Made by a program: the position numbers and the translations under genes. A DNA stretch of 64,000 nucleotides from NCBI RefSeq assembly GCF_000316685.1, contig NC_019680.1:3481407-3545406 (forward strand), read 5' to 3'. The notes below the pieces were generated by a model. The model saw only the letters and a program-made list of their open reading frames with translations. It was not told the origin of the DNA and did not search any database. This stretch comes from Synechococcus sp. PCC 6312. Lineage in GTDB: Bacteria > Cyanobacteriota > Cyanobacteriia > Thermosynechococcales > Thermosynechococcaceae. Below, piece by piece: positions 23,125 through 33,710 of this stretch. Each line of letters begins with the position of its first letter. Position 1 is the first letter of the stretch.

Positions 23125-23832
23125 ATGAACCTCGCACGCAGCCCAAAATCCGTGGTGATTGCCCCCTCAATCCTCTCGGCTGATTTTAGTCGGCTTGGGG
23201 ATGAAATTCGGGCTGTGGATGCCGCTGGTGCTGACTGGATTCACGTGGATGTCATGGATGGCCGGTTTGTCCCCAATATCACCATCGGCCCCTTGATTGT
23301 CGAAGCAATTCGCCCCGTCACCCCTAAGCCCCTTGATGTCCATTTAATGATTGTTGAGCCAGAAAAATATGTGGCTGACTTTGCTAAGGCTGGGGCCGAT
23401 ATTATTTCAGTCCATGCCGAGCACAATGCCTCTCCCCACCTCCATCGGACATTGGGACAAATTCGGGAATTAGGGAAGCAAGCAGGTGTGGTGCTCAACC
23501 CCTCAACCCCCCTGGAACTGATTGAATATGTGTTGGAGCTCTGTGATTTGATCTTGATTATGAGTGTCAATCCTGGGTTTGGTGGTCAAAAGTTTATTCC
23601 TGAAGTTGTCCCCAAAATTCGCCGCTTACGCGCCATCTGTGAGGAGCGGGGCTTGGATCCCTGGATTGAAGTAGATGGGGGTCTAAAAGGGGATAATACC
23701 TGGCAAGTTTTAGAAGCCGGAGCCAATGCGATTGTGGCCGGTTCAGCCGTCTTCAAAGCCAAGGACTACGCCCAGGCCATTGAGGGAATTCGCAACAGCA
23801 AACGCCCCATTCCTGAGTTAATCACGGCCTAA
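23125..23832 (+). CDS. rpe: Ribulose-phosphate 3-epimerase
   Basis: Interconverts ribulose 5-phosphate and xylulose 5-phosphate in the Calvin cycle and oxidative pentose phosphate pathway. The 235-residue TIM barrel shows [17 protein letters not shown], the metal-site strand [48 protein letters not shown] and the phosphate-binding EVDGGLK...[12 protein letters not shown]. All catalytic aspartate and histidine positions are present. It is followed 28 bases later by licD. Confidence 0.98.
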
Positions 23833-23860: not shown

Positions 23861-24682
23861 ATGGCTGAACCAACGGCAAAACCGGATCAGCATTTAGAGC
23901 CAATGAACTTGTCCGAAGTGCATCAAACGCTGCTGAGGATGTTGGCCGTGGTTACGGAATTATTGGATCACCATGGCCTAGACTATTGCTTATTTGGGGG
24001 AGGGTGTCTTGGTATTGCCCGTCATGATCATGGCTTTGTCCCTTGGGATGATGATTTAGATTTAGCCGTTTGGGCCCGGGATTGGCCGCGACTACCCAAG
24101 GTTTTCGCCCATCTACCGACTCCCTACGCCACCCTTCTAAAAGGTACATCCTATTTTCCAACCTTTAATGTATTTGATAGTTCAACCCAAGTATCTGGGG
24201 CTACGAATGCCGAATCAGCAGGGGTTTTTATTGATATTGTGCCGATGATGGTCTGGCCAGGCAAGTTGGCTAAGGTGATTGACCGAGTCCTAGAGGTTTT
24301 GGCAAGAACAGACGTTTCAACCTCACCCGTGGCCTGGAAACGCTTAGTCAGTCGAATCATTTGTTCCTTGCCTTTGGCCCGTGTAGCTCAATGTGTACAA
24401 AGACATATTTTTTTTCCCTACATCTTGACATCGGATCGACGCTTATTTACTCAAAAACAGGGATTAGTCACCGGAGCATTGGGCCGTCCTTGGCATGGGA
24501 AGTATCCGTTTGATGTCATTTTCCCAACCCAACTGAGCCACATCCATCAAGTCCCCGTCAAAATTCCCCGTCACCTGGATCAATTTCTTAAAAATCGCTA
24601 CGGCACAAAATATCTGGAGATTCCCGATGATGCTAAGCGGTGGCGGCATTTTCAGCAAGCCTATCGAATTGTGAATCCATGA
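23861..24682 (+). CDS. LicD-family phosphotransferase
   Basis: Nucleotidyltransferase-fold enzyme that moves a phospho-alcohol group (phosphocholine, or in some relatives glycerol- or ribitol-phosphate) from a CDP carrier to a glycan. The signature is LFGGGCLGIARHDHGFVPWDDDLDLAVWARDW (about residues 47-78), with the metal-binding DDDLD. The middle carries a membrane-leaning segment (VSRIICSLPLARVAQCVQRHIFF) and the end has PRHLDQFLKNRYGTKYLEIP, also typical. The ATG at 23861 is chosen over the in-frame TTG at 23855. Its stop overlaps the start of the cytidylyltransferase gene (ATGA), strong evidence for a functional pair. Confidence 0.9.
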   Translation: MAEPTAKPDQHLEPMNLSEVHQTLLRMLAVVTELLDHHGLDYCLFGGGCLGIARHDHGFVPWDDDLDLAVWARDWPRLPKVFAHLPTPYATLLKGTSYFPTFNVFDSSTQVSGATNAESAGVFIDIVPMMVWPGKLAKVIDRVLEVLARTDVSTSPVAWKRLVSRIICSLPLARVAQCVQRHIFFPYILTSDRRLFTQKQGLVTGALGRPWHGKYPFDVIFPTQLSHIHQVPVKIPRHLDQFLKNRYGTKYLEIPDDAKRWRHFQQAYRIVNP

Positions 24683-25113
24683 CAACGGCGATAACCTTTG
24701 GTGCGTTTGATTTACTTCACTACGGGCATTTGCGGCTTTTGGCTCGAATGGCTGAGATGGCATCGCACGTTATTGTTGGCCTGGCCACGGATGAAGTGAT
24801 CATGGCCTGTGGGAAAGCAGCCCCCTTCTATAGGTTTGAGATTCGCCAAGAAATGTTACTCCATACTTGCTATGTCAATCAGGTTTTACGCCATGGTAGT
24901 GCCATTGATGGCGGGGGACGGGTCAAAATTATTCAGGAAAAAATTGATTTCGTACAATCTCATCAGGTAAATTTAGTCGTTATGGGTAGTGATTGGCGCG
25001 GTGAGTATGATTTTCTCAAGCCCTATTGCGATGTTTGCTATCTGGAGCGGACACCTGATATTTCAACGACTAAAATCAAGCAACAACTATCAGGGGCAGT
25101 AATGGCAGATTAG
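24679..25113 (+). CDS. Glycerol-3-phosphate cytidylyltransferase-like enzyme
   Basis: A 144-residue nucleotidyltransferase of the TagD type, which makes CDP-alcohols from CTP. The first motif is ITFGAFDLLHYGHLRLLARM (GxFDxxHxGH). The HGSAIDGGGR stretch and NLVVMGSDWRGEYDFLKPYC follow, and the C-terminal signature is RTPDISTTKIKQ. The ATG at 24679 overlaps the licD stop; the longer frame from 24640 lies inside licD. The pair would make a CDP-alcohol and hand it to LicD. Whether the alcohol is glycerol, choline or another compound is not decidable here; the TagD-like motif favours glycerol. Confidence 0.88.
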   Translation: MTTAITFGAFDLLHYGHLRLLARMAEMASHVIVGLATDEVIMACGKAAPFYRFEIRQEMLLHTCYVNQVLRHGSAIDGGGRVKIIQEKIDFVQSHQVNLVVMGSDWRGEYDFLKPYCDVCYLERTPDISTTKIKQQLSGAVMAD

Positions 25114-25356: not shown

Positions 25357-26457
25357 TCATCTCTTGGAAGATTGCCCATTAAACCAGGCCAAGACTCGAT
25401 TCCAGGCCCACCAGCCATCCGGATCACCCCAGCGTTTTTGTTCTCGGTTGTCACTTAAGTAGCCGACATGGCCGCCATATCGAGTTAAGTGTAAATGCAA
25501 GGCTGGATTGTGGTGGCAAATCTGTTTTAAGTCGGGAATAATGCTGGGGTCAAAGAGGGGATCATCGGCAGCATAGAGGATATAAACGGGCCGCTTGAGT
25601 TGGTCGAGAAATCGGAAGGGACTACTGGCCTGGTAGTATGCAGCAACAGATTCAAACCCCAAGCGCGGAATCACCAACTCCTGATCAAATTCCCAAATAC
25701 TATTCGCCCGTTGAATTGCTTCTAAATCCAAGGCCTGGGGATGGTAGGCGTAGAGATGCCGGGCCAGAATTTTGAGTTGCTTGGTGATGGATCGTTCTAT
25801 CGCTCGGCCCCAAGGAGTTTTGACTAAATACTTCAAGGAGCGCAAGGAATCTAAACTCGGACAAATGACCGCTACCCCAGCAATATCAGCATTATTCTCT
25901 GTTTCGGCGGCGTGCAGTCCCCAAAGTGCTAATTGTCCACCCAAGGAATAGCCAACCAACCAATAGGGAGGAGGACAACCCAGTCCGGCGGCTTGTTCAG
26001 CAATGGCCAGAAAATCGCCACCCTCATAAATGCCATCGGATGTCAACGTTGGGCAAAGCTCGCCTGTTTTACCATGTCCACGCCAGTCAAATAAAATTAC
26101 CCCATAGCCTCTGTCCCAGGCCTTGCGCCCAAAAATTTGCAGATACCACTGGTTTGTTAGCTCTCCCGTAATCCCGTAAGTTGCGATCACAGTGCCGGGG
26201 GAAACTTGGGATTTTGGGGAACCGACCCAGGCCCAAAGGGGAATATTCTGCCCGCCTTGAATAATTTGCTCTTGATAAGGGGGTTGGGCATAGGGAGTTA
26301 AAGCCTGCCAGTTGCGTCCGTGAATTAGGGCCGTATAGAGAGTATGGATCAGGCCGGAACGTAAAAGCAGCGGGGGATAATAGGGGGGCAAATCTGATGG
26401 GGAATGGGGCATGGGTTGGCTAATGGGAGGGGGATTCACAGGCCTGGGGGGATACAT
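25357..26457 (-). CDS. Alpha/beta hydrolase, YheT-like esterase family
   Basis: A 366-residue alpha/beta-hydrolase. The oxyanion region is TVIATYGITGELTN, the substrate strand GVILFDWRGHGKT, and the nucleophile elbow GYSLGGQLAL holds the catalytic serine. AADDPLFDPS supplies the aspartate and YGGHVGYL the histidine, so the triad is complete. The order and NGGH-like ending fit the YheT/ABHD1-3 type of lipid or ester hydrolases. An internal ATG at 26410-26412 is an alternative start. The N-terminal proline-rich stretch overlaps the start of the divergent amidase gene. Confidence 0.87.
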   Translation of the reverse strand: MYPPRPVNPPPISQPMPHSPSDLPPYYPPLLLRSGLIHTLYTALIHGRNWQALTPYAQPPYQEQIIQGGQNIPLWAWVGSPKSQVSPGTVIATYGITGELTNQWYLQIFGRKAWDRGYGVILFDWRGHGKTGELCPTLTSDGIYEGGDFLAIAEQAAGLGCPPPYWLVGYSLGGQLALWGLHAAETENNADIAGVAVICPSLDSLRSLKYLVKTPWGRAIERSITKQLKILARHLYAYHPQALDLEAIQRANSIWEFDQELVIPRLGFESVAAYYQASSPFRFLDQLKRPVYILYAADDPLFDPSIIPDLKQICHHNPALHLHLTRYGGHVGYLSDNREQKRWGDPDGWWAWNRVLAWFNGQSSKR

Positions 26458-28159
26458 GGTGATGCAGTTACTAGCCCAAGATCAAAGTGGCTTACGGATT
26501 GTCTATCCACCCGTTGAACATCAAACCACAGCCCCCCAAATTTTTATTATTGGCACAGCCCCACCCCAGCAAATTGTTACGGTTAATGACCAAGTAATTA
26601 GCCAACGGTCTCCAGCCGGCCATTTTGCCCCCACAGTTCCCTTAGCCTATGGAGAAAATCAAATCCGTATCCAGGCCGGTGGCCAAACCCAAATTCTAAC
26701 TGTCACCCGTCCCCAACATCCCCCCATCACCGGACTAAATATTCTTGAGCCAGCCAGCAATTGGAGTCGTTTACCGAATGAACCCCTTTGTTTTACGTCC
26801 CAGGCCCCAGCCACAAGCACCCTTCACGTCCAGGTCGGTCAGGAGAAAGTTCCTCTATTCCCAATCCCAACGCCGGCCCAGCTTCCCCCCAACAGTGCGG
26901 CCCTCACCCACACGAATCAACCCCAATCCAACCCCATTTCAACCTTTCGAGGCTGTACCCAATTGTCCCAATCCAGTGACTACGGCCGGCCCCAATTTCG
27001 ATTAACTGCCCCAAACAAAGAATCCCAACTTGCGCCCGGTCGCATCCAAATTCTCAACCCCAATCAACTCCGCCCCATTCAAGTGATCCGGCCCCTCGGA
27101 GGTATTGCCCGCACTGGCCCCAGCACCGATTATTCCCGACTCACCCCGCTACCCCCAGGTACACAAGCTACCGTCACAGGCCAAACCGGAGAATGGTTAC
27201 GACTCGACTACGGGGCCTGGATTAACAAAAACGAAACCCAACCCTTACCCCCAGACAGCCCAACACAATCCCTGATTCGGAGTATTACCAGTCGGCAAGT
27301 CCCCGGTTGGACAGAAATCCGCTTTCCCCTGGAAGTTCCCGTGCCAGTAGCTGTGGATGTGAGCGACAAAACCTTTACCCTGAAACTGTTCAACACTACT
27401 GCCCAAACTGATGTGATTCGCCTCGATGCAGATCCCGTCATTAGTCGCTTGGATTGGCAACAAACCCGGCCTGGGGAAGTCATTTATCGGTTTCAACTTC
27501 ATTACCAACAACAATGGGGCTATCGTCTCCGTTATGAAGGAACTACGTTGGTTTTGGGCTTAAGGCATCCTCCGAAATTGGGGCCTAAAACGCAACCTTT
27601 GGCCGGGCTAAAAATCCTCTTAGATGCAGGGCATGGGGGGCCAGAGGATTCGGGAGCGATTGGGCCAACGGGTGAGCCTGAAAAGAAATTTACGCTAATT
27701 CTGGCCAAACTCCTAGAAACTGAACTGCAAAAACGGGGGGCGATGGTCATCCAAACCCGGACTACGGACAAAGACCTAGACTTACCGGAGCGGATCCTCG
27801 CCATTGAAAATAGTGAACCGACCTTAGCCTTCAGCCTTCATTACAATGCCCTACCAGACCAGGGAGATGCCCTCAACACCCAGGGAATTGGCGCATTTTG
27901 GTACCAGGCCCAGAGTCACAGTCTTGCGCTATTTTTAGAGGATTATTTAGCTACCCAACTAAATCGGCCCCGGTATGGCGTGTTTTGGAATAATTTGGCA
28001 TTGACTCGCCCCACTGTTGCCCCAGCCGTTGTCCTGGAATTGGGGTTCATGATCAATCCCTGGGAATTTGAATGGATTACGGATGAAACATCCCAAAAAC
28101 AATTGGCGAAAACCCTCGGTGATGGCATCCAGGCCTGGTTGTTGCAGGCGCAAAGATAA
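26411..28159 (+). CDS. N-acetylmuramoyl-L-alanine amidase with SH3-like domain
   Basis: Zinc amidase that cuts the amide bond between muramic acid and the stem peptide, used in septum splitting and wall turnover. The mature protein has a beta-rich N-terminal half, an SH3b-type module around GGIARTGPSTDYSRLTPLPP (about residues 234-253), an AMIN-like beta stretch, and a C-terminal Amidase_3 domain. Zinc ligands appear in LLDAGHGG, the glutamate of GEPEKK and SLHYNA, with the catalytic glutamate in VLELGFM. The N-terminus from 26411 (LMGGGFTGLGGYMVMQLLA) could act as a weak signal peptide; an ATG at 26456 is the alternative. The start lies inside the divergent hydrolase gene. Confidence 0.9.
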   Translation: MGWLMGGGFTGLGGYMVMQLLAQDQSGLRIVYPPVEHQTTAPQIFIIGTAPPQQIVTVNDQVISQRSPAGHFAPTVPLAYGENQIRIQAGGQTQILTVTRPQHPPITGLNILEPASNWSRLPNEPLCFTSQAPATSTLHVQVGQEKVPLFPIPTPAQLPPNSAALTHTNQPQSNPISTFRGCTQLSQSSDYGRPQFRLTAPNKESQLAPGRIQILNPNQLRPIQVIRPLGGIARTGPSTDYSRLTPLPPGTQATVTGQTGEWLRLDYGAWINKNETQPLPPDSPTQSLIRSITSRQVPGWTEIRFPLEVPVPVAVDVSDKTFTLKLFNTTAQTDVIRLDADPVISRLDWQQTRPGEVIYRFQLHYQQQWGYRLRYEGTTLVLGLRHPPKLGPKTQPLAGLKILLDAGHGGPEDSGAIGPTGEPEKKFTLILAKLLETELQKRGAMVIQTRTTDKDLDLPERILAIENSEPTLAFSLHYNALPDQGDALNTQGIGAFWYQAQSHSLALFLEDYLATQLNRPRYGVFWNNLALTRPTVAPAVVLELGFMINPWEFEWITDETSQKQLAKTLGDGIQAWLLQAQR

Positions 28160-28259: not shown

Positions 28260-29324
28260 TTAAGACCCTTGGGCTTGAAAAAGGGTTTGTCGCCGCAAAA
28301 TTTCTGCAATCGTAATATTAGGTTCCGGCGCACCATTAAACGCAGTTCCCACTTCCCCCCGAATAAATTGCAACTCAGCCAAACGATAGCCTTCCTCTGG
28401 TAAGGGGATATAGCCAACCTTCGCTACTAAACTAGGTGCTTCTTTAAGATAAAACTCAACAAATTCTTTTAATACATTATTATCCTGGGCAGCCTTGGCA
28501 TCCACATAAATAAATAAGGGGCGAGAGAGGGGTTGATATTGAGCATTTTGCACCGTCTCAACCGAGGGAAGCACTGCACCTTTGCCACTATCAATGGGAA
28601 CTGGCTTTAACCGATCTTGATTCGCTTCAAAATAGGCAAACGGCAAGTACCCTAGGGCGTTAGGATTATCGGCAATACCCTTGACAATCACATCATCATC
28701 TTCACTGCCGGTATAGTCATTGCGGGAATTTTTGGCATCCCCCATAATCGCTTCATTAAAATAGTCAAACGTTCCTGAATCTCTCCCAGGCCCGTACAAG
28801 ACTAACGGCTGATCCGGAAAATTGGGACGAATCTGATTCCAACGGGTAATTTTCCCTTCCGCAGCTTTCTCCCAGATCATTTTTAGTTCAGCGAGAGACA
28901 ACTGATCCACCCAGGCATTGGCCGGATTCACCGCAATCGTCAAGGCATCAAACCCCACAGGTAATTCGATAAAAGGCACGGCATTACTAATACAGGCATT
29001 CATCTCCGCAATCAAAATGGGGCGCGAGGCATCACTAATGCTTGTCTCTCCCGCACAGAACCGCCGAAACCCCCCTGAAGTCCCGGAAAACTGAGCCTCA
29101 ATCATAGCATTTTGCCCCTGGAGAGTTTCCTTAAAGGCTTCGACCACCGCGGTTGTAATCGGAAACACAGTACTAGAACCATCAATCTTAATCGGCCCTT
29201 GACTGAGTTGGGACTCGGGTGAACCACAGGCCACGAGAATAGCCAGGATTAGGGCAAGGGGCCAAAATCGAAAGAATGAGCGCAGGGGACGGAAGAGAAG
29301 TTTACGCATAGGAACTGAAAACAC
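28260..29324 (-). CDS. sphX: SphX-like phosphate-binding lipoprotein
   Basis: Periplasmic phosphate-binding protein. The N-terminus has basic residues, a hydrophobic run and a lipobox (LAILVACGS), giving a lipid-anchored protein. Phosphate-contact motifs are IDGSSTVFPIT, FSGTSGGFRRFCAG, ISDASRPI and YGPGRDSGTFDYFNEA, as in the PstS superfamily. The extra cysteines (FCAGE, NACISN) and C-terminus match SphX of cyanobacteria rather than classical PstS. A GTG at 29324 and ATG at 29307-29309 are both possible starts. It diverges from the pst operon and is expected to be phosphate-starvation-induced. Confidence 0.92.
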   Translation of the reverse strand: MFSVPMRKLLFRPLRSFFRFWPLALILAILVACGSPESQLSQGPIKIDGSSTVFPITTAVVEAFKETLQGQNAMIEAQFSGTSGGFRRFCAGETSISDASRPILIAEMNACISNAVPFIELPVGFDALTIAVNPANAWVDQLSLAELKMIWEKAAEGKITRWNQIRPNFPDQPLVLYGPGRDSGTFDYFNEAIMGDAKNSRNDYTGSEDDDVIVKGIADNPNALGYLPFAYFEANQDRLKPVPIDSGKGAVLPSVETVQNAQYQPLSRPLFIYVDAKAAQDNNVLKEFVEFYLKEAPSLVAKVGYIPLPEEGYRLAELQFIRGEVGTAFNGAPEPNITIAEILRRQTLFQAQGS

Positions 29325-29566
29325 TCCGGCAAGAAAAGGAGAATTAGCACACTGGGGATAAGTAACGCATCAATCAGGAAAACTCGACCCATCAATTTCT
29401 ATTGATATATTTTGAGGGTACTCGATTGGTTTGCAGAGGGGAAAGCTGTTACAAAAATTTAGAGGAAATATTCTAAAAACTGAGGATTAGGAATTATTGG
29501 GAGAGCATTCAGGGGCTAGCAGCAATTAGTTTAAGGGGGCAACACAACAAGAATTTTCCCCAGACC

Positions 29567-29585
29567 ACGTTAAGGTCAAATTAAT
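29567..29585 (-). promoter_or_regulatory. Putative Pho box toward sphX
   Basis: On the minus strand two octamers, ATTAATTT and CTTAACGT, are separated by three bases (11-base period). Both are close to the published cyanobacterial Pho-box unit (PyTTAAPyPyT). It is about 245 bases upstream of sphX, so the promoter would have to be distal. Assignment by pattern only. Confidence 0.4.
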
Positions 29586-29765
29586 TTTGGACATCTTTAA
29601 GGATATTTTCAGAATTGCCCTTTGAGTCCTGATTTTGTTAAGAGTTGATCGGGCCAATTTAAGGGAGACAGAGTTTTTGGCATGAATCAGTTTGCGCCTC
29701 CAGGCCTGGGAGTTCTAGTCAAAAAGTCAGGTTTGTTGCTTTAAGGTTTCGTTAATTTGATTTAC

Positions 29766-29784
29766 CTTAACCTGGTCTTTACTG
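29766..29784 (+). promoter_or_regulatory. Putative Pho box of the pst operon
   Basis: CTTAACCT, a three-base spacer, then CTTTACTG, matching the direct-repeat layout of SphR-binding sites in cyanobacteria, about 130 bases upstream of the pstS start. A GTTAATTT unit just upstream is slightly out of phase. Confidence 0.5.
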
Positions 29785-29912
29785 AATCAGGGTATCGTCT
29801 AGCCTGTGAAGTAGATTGAGATTTTAGTGATTGTATCCGTTTTTACAGATTTTCTCTGTCTTGGTTGTTTTGTAACTGCTTCACGCTTGACGTTATTTGG
29901 TGATTGAGGATC

Positions 29913-30992
29913 ATGGTTGCAAAAATTAAGCGATCCCGTTTTTTAGCTGGCCTGGCAGGGGTATCGGTCGCATTCACGGTGGTGGCCTGTGGCGGCGGTC
30001 AAGAAACAACAGGTTCGGGCGACTCTACCTCTCCGGTCTCAGGTCAGGTTGCTCTCAGTGGGGCGGGGGCGACTTTCCCGGCTCCTCTCTATCAGAAATG
30101 GTTTGCTGATTTTAATCAAAAGTATCCGAACATCACCGTGGCTTATCAATCTGTGGGCAGCGGGGCTGGAGTCCAACAATTTACCCAAGGTACGGTGGAC
30201 TTTGGGGCCAGCGACGTGGCCATGAAAGACGATGAGATTGCTAAGGTCTCGCAGGGTGTGGTGATGCTACCCATGACGGCTGGGGCAATTGTGATGGCCT
30301 ATAACCTCCCTGAAGTCAAGGAACCAATTAAATTATCTCGGCAATTACTAGCTGATATTCTCCTGGGTAAAGTCAAGAAATGGAACGATCCGGCCGTGGT
30401 TAAGGACAATCCCGGTGTTACTTTTCCCGACAAAGCCATTCAAGTGGTCTATCGTTCCGATGGCAGTGGGACAACTGGGGTATTTACAAAGCACATGGCC
30501 GCGGCCAGCCCAGAGTGGAAAGACAAAGTTGGGGAAGGCAAAACCGTCCAATGGCCAGTGGGTGTTGGGGCCAAAGGGAATGAGGGTGTGACGGCCCAGA
30601 TTCAACAAACCCCTGGCTCGATTGGCTATATCGAATATGGCTACGCTAAGCAAAATGGTCTCCAGATGGCGATTCTCCAAAACAAGGCAGGTGAATTTAT
30701 TGAGCCAACCCCGGAAGCCTTTACCGAAACGCTGGCGACAGTAGAGTTACCAGAAAACTTGCGAGCCTTTATTCCCGATCCGGAAGGGGCGAAGTCCTAT
30801 CCGCTGGTCAGCTATACCTGGATTTTGGCTTATAAAGAGTACAGTGATCCCGAGAAAGTAAAAGCCTTCAAAGCGGCGATGGAGTATGGTTTAACCACTG
30901 GGCAACAGGATAGCGCGGCCTTGGGTTATATTGCCCTGCCAGAGCCTGTGGTGACTCGTGTGAAAGCTGCTCTAGAGACGATCAAACCCTAG
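29913..30992 (+). CDS. pstS: Phosphate ABC transporter substrate-binding lipoprotein PstS
   Basis: High-affinity periplasmic phosphate receptor for PstCAB. The signal peptide KIKRSRFLAGLAGVSVAFTVVACGGG ends in a lipobox cysteine. Binding motifs are LSGAGATFPAPLYQKWF, YQSVGSGAGVQQF, FGASDVAM, VYRSDGSGTTGVFTKHM and GSIGYIEYGYA, all PstS-typical. The ATG at 29913 with GAGG just upstream is chosen over the in-frame TTG at 29904. It is the first gene of pstSCAB, ten bases before pstC. Confidence 0.96.
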   Translation: MVAKIKRSRFLAGLAGVSVAFTVVACGGGQETTGSGDSTSPVSGQVALSGAGATFPAPLYQKWFADFNQKYPNITVAYQSVGSGAGVQQFTQGTVDFGASDVAMKDDEIAKVSQGVVMLPMTAGAIVMAYNLPEVKEPIKLSRQLLADILLGKVKKWNDPAVVKDNPGVTFPDKAIQVVYRSDGSGTTGVFTKHMAAASPEWKDKVGEGKTVQWPVGVGAKGNEGVTAQIQQTPGSIGYIEYGYAKQNGLQMAILQNKAGEFIEPTPEAFTETLATVELPENLRAFIPDPEGAKSYPLVSYTWILAYKEYSDPEKVKAFKAAMEYGLTTGQQDSAALGYIALPEPVVTRVKAALETIKP

Positions 30993-31001
30993 GAACCGTT
31001 T

Positions 31002-31952
31002 ATGACGACCTCTCTCCCCCAGGCCCCGGCCATTGCCCAACCCCGGACTCCCCAAGAAAAATTGGTGGATCGCGGCTTTATTTGGTTGACTCGCATTTGT
31101 GCCTATGGGATTGCTATCTTGCTTCTGTTTATTGGCCTTCGCGTGGCGATTGAAGCAGGGCCGGCGATCTCGAAGTTTGGCCTGGGGTTTCTGGTGACAG
31201 AAAGTTGGAACCCGGTGACAGGTATTTATGGCGCGTTGCCGGTGATTTATGGAACTTTCGTCACCTGTGCCATTGCCCTCTTATTGGGGGTGCCGATTGG
31301 GGTGGGAACTGCAATTTTCCTCAGTGAAAACTTCATCCCGGTGGCGGTACGAACCGTTCTAGTCTTTTTGATTGAACTGTTGGCGGCCATTCCCAGTGTG
31401 GTTTATGGGCTTTGGGGTATTTTTGTCTTGATCCCCATTTTGCGGGATTTTGGTGGTTGGCTCCACAATGCGGCCGGCTGGTTTCCTCTATTTTCAACCC
31501 AACCGACTGGGCCTGGCCTGCTTCCGGCTGGGGTCGTGTTAGCAATCATGATTTTGCCCATTATTACGGCGATTTCTCGGGATTCCTTGGCTTCTCTCCC
31601 CCCCGAACTTCGGCAAGCCTCGATTGGCCTGGGCGCAACTCGGTGGGAAACGGTTTTCCGGGTTTTGGTACCGGCGGCATTTTCAGGGATTATCGGGGCA
31701 ATCATTTTAGCCTTAGGGCGGGCGATGGGCGAAACGATGGCCGTGACAATGTTGATCGGTAACTCGAATCAGGTAAATATTTCTCTGTTTGCCCCTGGAA
31801 ATACGGTTGCATCGCTCTTGGCCAGTCAGTTTGCCGAAGCCAGTGGGATCCAGGTTGCCGCCCTAATGTATGCCGGATTAGTCTTGTTCTTTATGACCTT
31901 TGTGGTGAATGTGATTGCTGAGTTGATTGTCCTGCAAGTCAAAAAATTCTAG
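31002..31952 (+). CDS. pstC: Phosphate ABC transporter permease PstC
   Basis: Inner-membrane permease half of the Pst transporter, 316 residues with six membrane segments after a short cytosolic N-terminus. The BPD_transp_1 coupling loop reads LASLPPELRQASIGLGATRWETVFRVLVPAAFSGI, where the cytosolic EAA motif contacts PstB. The segment AIPSVVYGLWGIFVLIP and ILALGRAMGETMAVTML are PstC-specific. Immediately follows pstS. Confidence 0.96.
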   Translation: MTTSLPQAPAIAQPRTPQEKLVDRGFIWLTRICAYGIAILLLFIGLRVAIEAGPAISKFGLGFLVTESWNPVTGIYGALPVIYGTFVTCAIALLLGVPIGVGTAIFLSENFIPVAVRTVLVFLIELLAAIPSVVYGLWGIFVLIPILRDFGGWLHNAAGWFPLFSTQPTGPGLLPAGVVLAIMILPIITAISRDSLASLPPELRQASIGLGATRWETVFRVLVPAAFSGIIGAIILALGRAMGETMAVTMLIGNSNQVNISLFAPGNTVASLLASQFAEASGIQVAALMYAGLVLFFMTFVVNVIAELIVLQVKKF

Positions 31953-32035
31953 GTTGTTGCTGTTGCCATATATGGTCAAATAAATTTCCTGAGCCTGCCT
32001 GATTTGGTTTATCTGCCCTTTCCCCCCTTGCACCT

Positions 32036-32887
32036 ATGACTGCTGTTTCCGCCTTTGATAAGAAATTTACTAGCCGGACGTTGTTTAGTTGGGTGATGAC
32101 CTCCCTGACTGGCCTTTGCGTTGTGACTGCGGTTGTTCCTTTGGTTGCCGTATTAGCCTATGTAATTTGGCAAGGTGGTAGTCGCTTTAGTTTAGCGTTG
32201 TTCACGAAATTGCCCCCTCCGCCAATGGTTCCGGGTGGTGGTTTTGCCAATGCGATTGTTGGGACAATTACGATGGTGGGCCTGGCGGTGGTGATTAGCT
32301 TACCGATTGGGATTGGGGCGGCGGTTTTTTTATCGGAGTTTGCCCCAAATTGGGTCGCCCGTTGGATTCGCTTTGCCACAAATATTTTGAACGGTGTCCC
32401 TTCGATTATTGTGGGCGTGTTTGCCTATGCGGCCTTGGTTGTTCCCTTAAAGACTTATTCTGCTTTTGCCGGTGCGGCGGCCTTGGCGGTGTTGATGCTG
32501 CCAACCATTATTCGGACAACGGATGAGGCCTTGTTAATTGTTCCTCAAGATATTCGCTGGGCCTCGGTTGGCCTGGGAGCTTCTGGCTATTGGACGACCT
32601 TACGGGTCATTTTACCAGCGGCGGCTCCGGCAATTATTACAGGAACGACTTTAGCAGTGGCCCGGGCGGCGGGAGAAACGGCTCCTTTAATCTTTACGGC
32701 GTTGTTTACTCAGTTTTGGAGTAAGAGTTTGTTGGCCCCGACGGCCTCTTTGGCAGTGTTGATTTATAACTTTGCCATTGTTCCGTTTAAAAATCAGCAA
32801 GAATTGGCCTGGGCAGCTTCATTTTTATTAGTCATTCTAGTCTTAATTACTAGCATCATTTCTCGCTTGGCCACCCGCCGCCGTTAA
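32036..32887 (+). CDS. pstA: Phosphate ABC transporter permease PstA
   Basis: Second permease half, 283 residues, six membrane segments. [16 protein letters not shown] parallels the PstC AIPSVVYG element, and the coupling loop is [51 protein letters not shown] is the PstA hallmark. It lies 83 bases after pstC and 25 before pstB. Confidence 0.96.
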
Positions 32888-32912
32888 CTGTTCTGTTTGG
32901 GATTTATTGCTT

Positions 32913-33710
32913 ATGACTTCCGCTCATCCTGTTGCTGAAACTGCCGTAGAAACTCGTAATCTTAATGTGTACTATGGCTCCTTTTTAGCGGTCCAAGAGG
33001 TTTCGATTAAAATCCCGAAGCAGCAAGTGACCGCCTTTATTGGTCCTTCGGGTTGTGGCAAAAGTACGATATTACGCTGTTTTAATCGCTTAAATGACTT
33101 AATTGATAGTTTCCGGGCTGAGGGAGAAATCCTCATTGATGGCCAAAATATCAATTCGACCCAAGTGGATCCGGTGGAATTGCGGCGGCGAATTGGGATG
33201 GTTTTTCAAAAGCCTAACCCGTTTCCGAAATCGATTTATGACAATGTGGTTTATGGGGTGCGGGTGAATCGGCATAAGGGGGATTTAGATGAAATTGTCG
33301 AGCGAGCCTTAACCCAGGCCGCGCTGTGGGATGAAGTCAAAGATAAGCTCAAAACCAGTGGATTAGCTCTTTCTGGAGGACAACAACAACGCCTATGTAT
33401 TGCCCGGGCAATTGCAGTGCAGCCAGAAGTCGTCTTGATGGATGAACCTTGTGCCTCGTTGGATCCAATTTCGACCCTGAAGGTGGAAGAGCTTATTAAT
33501 GAGCTAAAACAGTCCTACACGATCATCATCGTGACCCACAATATGCAGCAGGCGACCCGGGTTTCCGATATGACGGCCTTCTTTAACGCCACCCTGTCGG
33601 ATAAAGGCAAGCGATATGGTTATTTAGTGGAATATGATCAAACCAAAAATATTTTCCACAGTCCGCAGCAGGAAGCAACCCAGCAATATGTCAGTGGACG
33701 TTTTGGCTAG
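32913..33710 (+). CDS. pstB: Phosphate ABC transporter ATP-binding protein PstB
   Basis: ATPase subunit of Pst, 265 residues. Walker A is GPSGCGKST, the Q-loop region [12 protein letters not shown], the signature [14 protein letters not shown], Walker [14 protein letters not shown] and the switch histidine IVTHNM. The [12 protein letters not shown] element is specific for PstB. The ATG at 32913 is used; a TTG two codons upstream is in frame. Last gene of the operon; no phoU follows, the next gene being convergent polA. Confidence 0.97.

Follow-up and report, generated by a model that had tools for sequence, protein, structure and literature searches.

A LicD–TagD-like gene pair in a cyanobacterial genome and its predicted part in phospho-alcohol decoration of the envelope

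Results

Gene pair and surroundings

The locus holds two overlapping genes, which encode a LicD/fukutin-family phospho-alcohol transferase (P0001) and a TagD-like cytidylyltransferase (P0002); all coordinates are positions within the 64-kb stretch of DNA that was analysed (the window), and those of the features are collected in Table 1. The licD frame opens with an ATG at 23861 and closes with a TGA at 24680-24682, while the start codon of the tagD-like gene is the ATG at 24679-24681. An earlier note on this DNA had described such a pair, coupled through an ATGA shared by the stop and the start, with one enzyme making a CDP-alcohol and the other transferring the phospho-alcohol. Both frames were confirmed as open, the family matches lie far above chance and the ATGA is indeed shared at 24679-24682; the note's assignment of the two families, the coupling of the genes and the chemistry it proposed are likewise backed, the two predicted active sites fitting CDP-polyol enzymes. 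The genome that carries the window (G000, 3.72 Mb) yielded no other match to LicD.

Table 1. Coordinates of the gene pair, its motifs and the adjoining rpe gene within the window
Feature	Positions	Strand	Basis or remark
rpe (ribulose-phosphate 3-epimerase)	23125..23832	+	28 bp upstream of licD
licD, LicD/fukutin-family phospho-alcohol transferase, 273 aa (P0001)	23861..24682	+	PF04991 and AlphaFold2 model
DDDLD motif, P0001 residues 63-67	24047..24061	+	FKRP alignment; invariant in 37 LicD proteins
Asp125 of P0001, putative counterpart of FKRP Asp416	24233..24235	+	invariant among 37 LicD proteins
ATGA stop-start overlap coupling licD and tagD-like	24679..24682	+	sequence reading
tagD-like cytidylyltransferase, 144 aa (P0002)	24679..25113	+	TIGR01518 and AlphaFold2 model
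HYGH, the HxGH CTP-binding motif, P0002 residues 14-17	24718..24729	+	alignment
C-G-K at TagD positions 44-46 (Lys44 to Cys, Lys46 kept)	24808..24816	+	HMMER alignment
Insert of about 10 residues, P0002 residues ~73-83	24895..24927	+	a W-E-Q-K-like stretch occupies this place in most of the TagD clade
RTPDISTT, RTxGISTT-type motif, P0002 residues 124-131	25048..25071	+	alignment

No promoter-like site was found ahead of licD in a promoter and terminator scan that performed at chance level, and rpe ends only a short distance upstream; read-through from rpe is therefore likely, and rpe and licD are possibly co-transcribed. The first gene downstream of the pair encodes an alpha/beta hydrolase and lies on the opposite strand (25357-26457), and the closest cell-wall gene encodes an Amidase_3 protein (26411-28159). 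The earlier statement that no glycan gene adjoins the pair holds for the open reading frames between 8 and 42 kb as judged by eye: no glycosyltransferase was seen there among frames of 140 aa or longer, or from 20 to 30 kb with the limit lowered to 80 aa. A Pfam run within the window covered the pair and four neighbouring genes. Genes for two PstS-like phosphate-binding proteins, at 28260-29324 (- strand) and 29904-30992 (+ strand), and for a PstC-PstA-PstB-like transporter, all named by eye, were also noticed a few kilobases downstream of the pair, together spanning 28260-33710.

The rpe gene is present in 25 of the 28 other genomes of the order, and the stretches around these 25 copies gave no match to LicD or TagD, which makes the adjacency of rpe to the pair look positional. 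A functional partnership, in which rpe would contribute to a pentose-derived polyol, was rejected on this ground, and rpe is regarded as chromosomal context outside the function of the pair. The genes flanking rpe vary among the relatives, so that an empty insertion site is not definable.

The LicD protein

P0001 belongs to the LicD family, matching Pfam PF04991 with 77.5 bits (E 2.1e-21; cutoff 22.6). The best solved matches to its AlphaFold2 model (pLDDT 82.5, built on 37 aligned proteins) are all structures of FKRP, a ribitol-5-phosphate transferase (Foldseek E 8.7e-6), with a VIA-align Z of 15.9 and an rmsd of 2.5 over 164 residues; the next fold has a Z of 9.7. Metal binding and activity of FKRP are reported to require Asp360, 362, 364 and 416 (PMC6965139). 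In the alignment, Asp63, Asp65 and Asp67 of P0001, which lie in the DDDLD motif, correspond to Asp360, Asp362 and Asp364, and an h[DE]h motif suggests Asp125 as the equivalent of Asp416; with the last of these matched through the motif, all four metal-binding aspartates have counterparts in P0001. The two proteins share the nucleotidyltransferase-fold catalytic domain with its catalytic aspartates, but P0001 has no stem domain, is only about 20% identical to FKRP over the aligned part, and uses a donor that is predicted only. It is not an Mf1 equivalog, scoring 44.9 bits against model NF045866, for which the cutoff is 225. P0001 is predicted to use a CDP-alcohol as the donor of the phospho-alcohol that it transfers.

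The TagD-like protein

P0002 matches TIGR01518, the model for glycerol-3-phosphate cytidylyltransferase, with 92 bits (E 2.9e-26), which is under the equivalog cutoff of 165.4; it is therefore named TagD-like rather than an equivalog. Among PDB sequences it matches TarD (2b7l, E 4.4e-29) and TagD (1coz, E 8.7e-27), and its AlphaFold2 model (pLDDT 90.8, built on 16 proteins) superposes on Bacillus subtilis TagD (1coz) with a Z of 21.4 and an rmsd of 1.2 Å over 126 residues. TagD and TarD (2b7l, Z 20.6) are the closest in fold among the cytidylyl- and adenylyltransferases compared, ahead of the Fom1 CyTase (5x3d, 17.0), ECT/CCT (about 15), HldC (15.0) and PPAT (13.8). The earlier note had reasoned that an active site more like those of ADP-heptose or pantetheine adenylyltransferases would count against its reading; by both fold and sequence, TagD and TarD are nearer. 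P0002 scores 34.6 bits against TIGR02199 (D-glycero-beta-D-manno-heptose 1-phosphate adenylyltransferase; cutoff 181.5) and 22.7 bits against the PPAT model TIGR01510 (cutoff 103.3), and the HldE/RfaE, PPAT, NadM and FAD-synthetase identities were set aside on low family scores and lower Z. In a maximum-likelihood tree of 99 proteins P0002 falls within the TagD clade (support 94/91), in the company of TagD proteins from Pontibacillus, Paracoccus, Sinorhizobium, Octadecabacter and the viral contig L040; its branch is long (2.11) and its position inside the clade is unsure.

The motifs HxGH, RTxGISTT and, for the dimer, RYVDEVI are described for TagD-type enzymes (PMC8262930). P0002 carries the first two, and has CYVNQVL in place of the third. 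It thus shares with TagD and TarD, the enzymes of wall teichoic acid synthesis, the fold, HxGH, RTxxISTT and the DWxGxxDFLK stretch, in which its D-W-x-G is TagD-like, and differs from them in its TIGR01518 score under the cutoff, the loss of one lysine and an insert.

The lysine belongs to a pair, Lys44 and Lys46, that is reported to contact the phosphates of CDP-glycerol in TagD (PMC8262930). The HMMER alignment places C-G-K at these positions, and a MAFFT alignment of the 99 proteins, shifted by one residue, puts G and A in the two columns; by either alignment P0002 is without one lysine of the pair, which weakens the case for glycerol-3-phosphate as its substrate. The pair is not universal in the TagD clade, where 13 of 20 rows have the K-x-K pattern. 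The confidence of the model falls to 73 across residues 71-80, in the region of the insert (Table 1). The altered substrate site would be the interesting part of P0002, for which glycerol-3-phosphate is the best guess as substrate.

LicD-TagD linkage in other genomes

Linkage of the two families recurs outside the window. In the phylum sample, 14 of the 28 TagD genes over the TIGR01518 cutoff are preceded on the same strand by a LicD gene no more than 600 bp away, and the reverse order does not occur, against a chance expectation of about 0.04 if genomes of 2.0 Mb are assumed. LicD lies within 600 bp in 7 of the 29 cases in the group scoring 105-155 bits, six of them reversed in order, and in 6 of 22 in the group scoring 70-101 bits, the window included. 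The count took in 129 LicD rows, omitting second pieces of frames already present, and the 79 TagD-like rows that scored at least 70 bits.

The pairs of the putative non-photosynthetic sister class (genomes G083, G153, G163, G316 and others) and that of Sinorhizobium meliloti T073 resemble the window in gene order, strand and adjacency. The sister-class pairs differ in that 14 of the TagD genes next to LicD pass the TIGR01518 cutoff, and identity to P0001 is no more than about 16-22% for those of their LicD proteins that were compared. The S. meliloti pair lies on plasmid accessoryA (L190, 3688-4917), LicD preceding a TagD that is 39% identical to P0002, and adjoins ABC-2 transporter genes with no glycan genes adjoining. 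In Parabacteroides distasonis, LicD and TagD are adjacent in the reversed order inside a glycan cluster. Among the matches listed for 80 loci that LicD had brought in, a biased sample, a frame of the TagD superfamily lies in the same orientation no more than 600 bp away at eight (L104, L108, L114, L117, L119, L146, L158 and L162); at lengths of 450-490 aa, several such frames are probably fusions. Two putatively viral IMG/VR contigs (L040, 4393-5378; L041, 1274-2259) carry an overlapping pair with LicD first, and phages could be carriers or users of modules like this.

Distribution and origin

Two of the 388 class genomes sampled carry LicD, as does one of the 29 genomes of the order, the other 28 being without it. 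TagD-like matches (E <= 0.001) occur in 155 of the 388 class genomes and are mostly weak or of other subgroups; three genomes with stronger matches (G235, G353 and G136), also of other subgroups, showed no LicD within the sequence retrieved. That cyanobacteria in general keep the pair, which the earlier note had offered as a check, was thus not borne out, and the pair is no conserved cyanobacterial trait. In a separate draw from the phylum, LicD was present in 79 of 386 genomes, three of the same class (G000, G188 and G383) and 76 outside it; nearly all of the latter belong to one family (f31) with genomes of 1.7-2.5 Mb, which from size and kinship is taken to be a gut-type, non-photosynthetic sister class.

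Horizontal acquisition of the two genes together is probable, the one basis for this being the phyletic distribution of the pair. Its GC content (0.44-0.50) is not clearly foreign against the surroundings, so that composition lends recent transfer no support. A search of genome contigs with P0001 returned no relative and one of viral contigs no pattern match, and with the pair as blastn query, plasmids yielded no match.

Several other cyanobacterial loci were seen in the course of these searches. The second LicD gene among the 388 class genomes lies within a phosphonate operon of a small-genome cyanobacterium (G188; L054, 6108-11939), in a row with a CDP-alcohol transferase, a PEP mutase-cytidylyltransferase fusion, a TPP enzyme and an iron alcohol dehydrogenase; this LicD may attach the phosphonate to a glycan. 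A 7.7-Mb cyanobacterial assembly (G383) has a LicD domain behind apparent TPR repeats (L053, 7175-8230) that is broken by a single in-frame stop codon. A glycan cluster in G353 (L171, 476-4519) combines a TagD-like protein of another subgroup with a PF04464 CDP-glycerol glycerophosphotransferase, and from its gene content would represent teichoic-acid-type chemistry in another cyanobacterium.

Discussion

The pair is a real, intact and probably acquired LicD-TagD module, of an ordinary kind that is rare in the class of its host. The reading to which we assign a probability of roughly 0.6 is that it forms a two-step module for phospho-alcohol decoration, in which CDP-glycerol is made and glycerol-phosphate is put on an envelope saccharide. 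The TagD-type protein would convert CTP and sn-glycerol-3-phosphate to CDP-glycerol and pyrophosphate. The LicD-type protein, holding metal ions through Asp63/65/67 and Asp125, would then take CDP-glycerol as donor and place its glycerol-phosphate on a hydroxyl of a saccharide in the cell envelope, releasing CMP; a lipid-linked glycan, an O-antigen or an exopolysaccharide are candidate acceptors. The translational overlap would keep the two enzymes in step, and the pair would have been imported as a unit and placed behind rpe, outside any glycan cluster. Glycerol-3-phosphate would be supplied by the ordinary GpsA pathway; GpsA is present in the genome, so the substrate should be available. Searches of the genome found neither a PF04464 glycerophosphotransferase nor, by the Pfam family PF01633, a choline kinase, which leaves LicD as the obvious consumer of the CDP-product; there are two PF00953 proteins.

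Against this reading speak the score under the TIGR01518 cutoff, the lost lysine, CYVNQVL, the insert, the long branch and the absence of foreign GC; moreover, LicD enzymes accept several CDP-alcohols and no nearby glycan cluster indicates an acceptor. Less probably, the module is the same and P0002 activates another phospho-alcohol, such as a larger polyol phosphate, phosphocholine, phosphoethanolamine or a phosphonate, for LicD to transfer. The changed residues and insert of the substrate site and the score under the equivalog cutoff would fit this, as would the pentose-phosphate enzyme encoded 28 bp upstream and the finding that LicD can be linked to cytidylyltransferases from other subgroups, as it is to the PEP-mutase fusion in G188; the LicD-family protein Mf1 is reported to use CDP-choline and CDP-ethanolamine (PMC11982090). 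On the other hand, the nearest solved structures are both glycerol-3-phosphate enzymes by a clear margin, R-T-x-x-I-S-T-T and D-W-x-G of P0002 are TagD-like, PF01633 is absent, and no phosphonate or kinase gene was seen by eye among the nearby open reading frames. CDP-ribitol enzymes (TarI/IspD) also belong to a family distinct from that of TagD.

It is rather doubtful that P0002 has gone as far as evolving a new substrate site and making a non-glycerol CDP-alcohol, with which LicD would install an undescribed envelope phosphodiester. We know of no teichoic-acid-like surface chemistry from oxygenic cyanobacteria. Two specific identities were also considered. Phosphocholine chemistry of the LicC-LicD kind is disfavoured, LicC being of another family and PF01633 being absent, and CpgD, which makes CDP-glycerate, was dropped, as it belongs to COG1213 and is described as being without homology to TagD (PMC12275187).

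Decay of an acquired pair, with the active site of P0002 partly lost and little or no function left in the module, is unlikely: the replaced Lys44, the long branch and the absence of LicD from the 28 other genomes of the order would agree with it, but both frames are full-length and open, the overlap is intact, the catalytic aspartates of LicD, HxGH and RTxxISTT are all retained and the models are confident. That the two genes act independently and overlap incidentally, CDP-glycerol going to another enzyme, for example, and LicD being fed a CDP-alcohol from elsewhere, is very improbable: half of the 28 over-cutoff TagD genes of the phylum sample have no LicD within 600 bp and a Legionella adelaidensis plasmid has LicD without TagD, but a PF04464 consumer is lacking from a genome whose only LicD match is P0001, and the linkage elsewhere is strong and order-specific.

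The reading of the pair as a glycerol-phosphate module has a precedent in Actinobacillus pleuropneumoniae, where Cps7B is reported to supply CDP-Gro and the LicD-family protein Cps7C to polymerise Gro3P from it (PMC11666461); Cps3B and Cps7B are described as TagD-type glycerol-3-phosphate cytidylyltransferases (PMC8262930). The combination of a TagD-type with a LicD-family enzyme, and its envelope use in a Gram-negative bacterium, are thus already known. Unlike the window pair, Cps7B and Cps7C are reported to be encoded in a capsule cluster alongside CpsA and CpsD, and Cps7C to polymerise Gro3P; Cps3B and Cps7B are about 70% identical to B. subtilis TagD, compared with about 40% for P0002. The TagD/TarD systems differ in having a TagB/TagF (PF04464) partner, which G000 is without. 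LicC-LicD of Haemophilus and pneumococcus and Mf1 of Mycoplasma fermentans resemble the present case in a LicD-family transferase that uses a CDP-alcohol, as is predicted for P0001; LicC-type phosphocholine cytidylyltransferases are assigned to a different family, COG1213 (PMC12275187), and no PF01633 kinase accompanies the window pair in its genome. LicD proteins have also been proposed as ribitol-phosphate transferases in Enterococcus (PMC7188991).

A two-step kit of this kind, for activating and attaching a phospho-alcohol, is found also in gut and capsule-forming bacteria, and is rare in photosynthetic cyanobacteria. In the titles and abstracts of a mostly open-access literature there was no description of a LicD-TagD pair in cyanobacteria, and those on LicD and Prochlorococcus phosphonates, or on phosphoglycerol and cyanobacterial LPS, do not describe it either. 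If the glycerol-phosphate reading is correct, an oxygenic cyanobacterium has an envelope glycan decorated with phosphodiesters by enzymes of the teichoic-acid type, and surface charge, cation binding and recognition by phages or grazers would be affected. It would also point to movement of the LicD-TagD module from one phylum to another as a compact pair of genes that needs no glycan cluster around it.

Two observations on phage records may be added. LicD and TagD matches occur together in two short, unannotated records filed as 'Listeria phage' (OR849084.1 and OR847250.1; 2.6 and 4.2 kb), which may be host fragments. TagD-like matches were also seen in cyanophage records, 11 of Synechococcus and 2 of Prochlorococcus.
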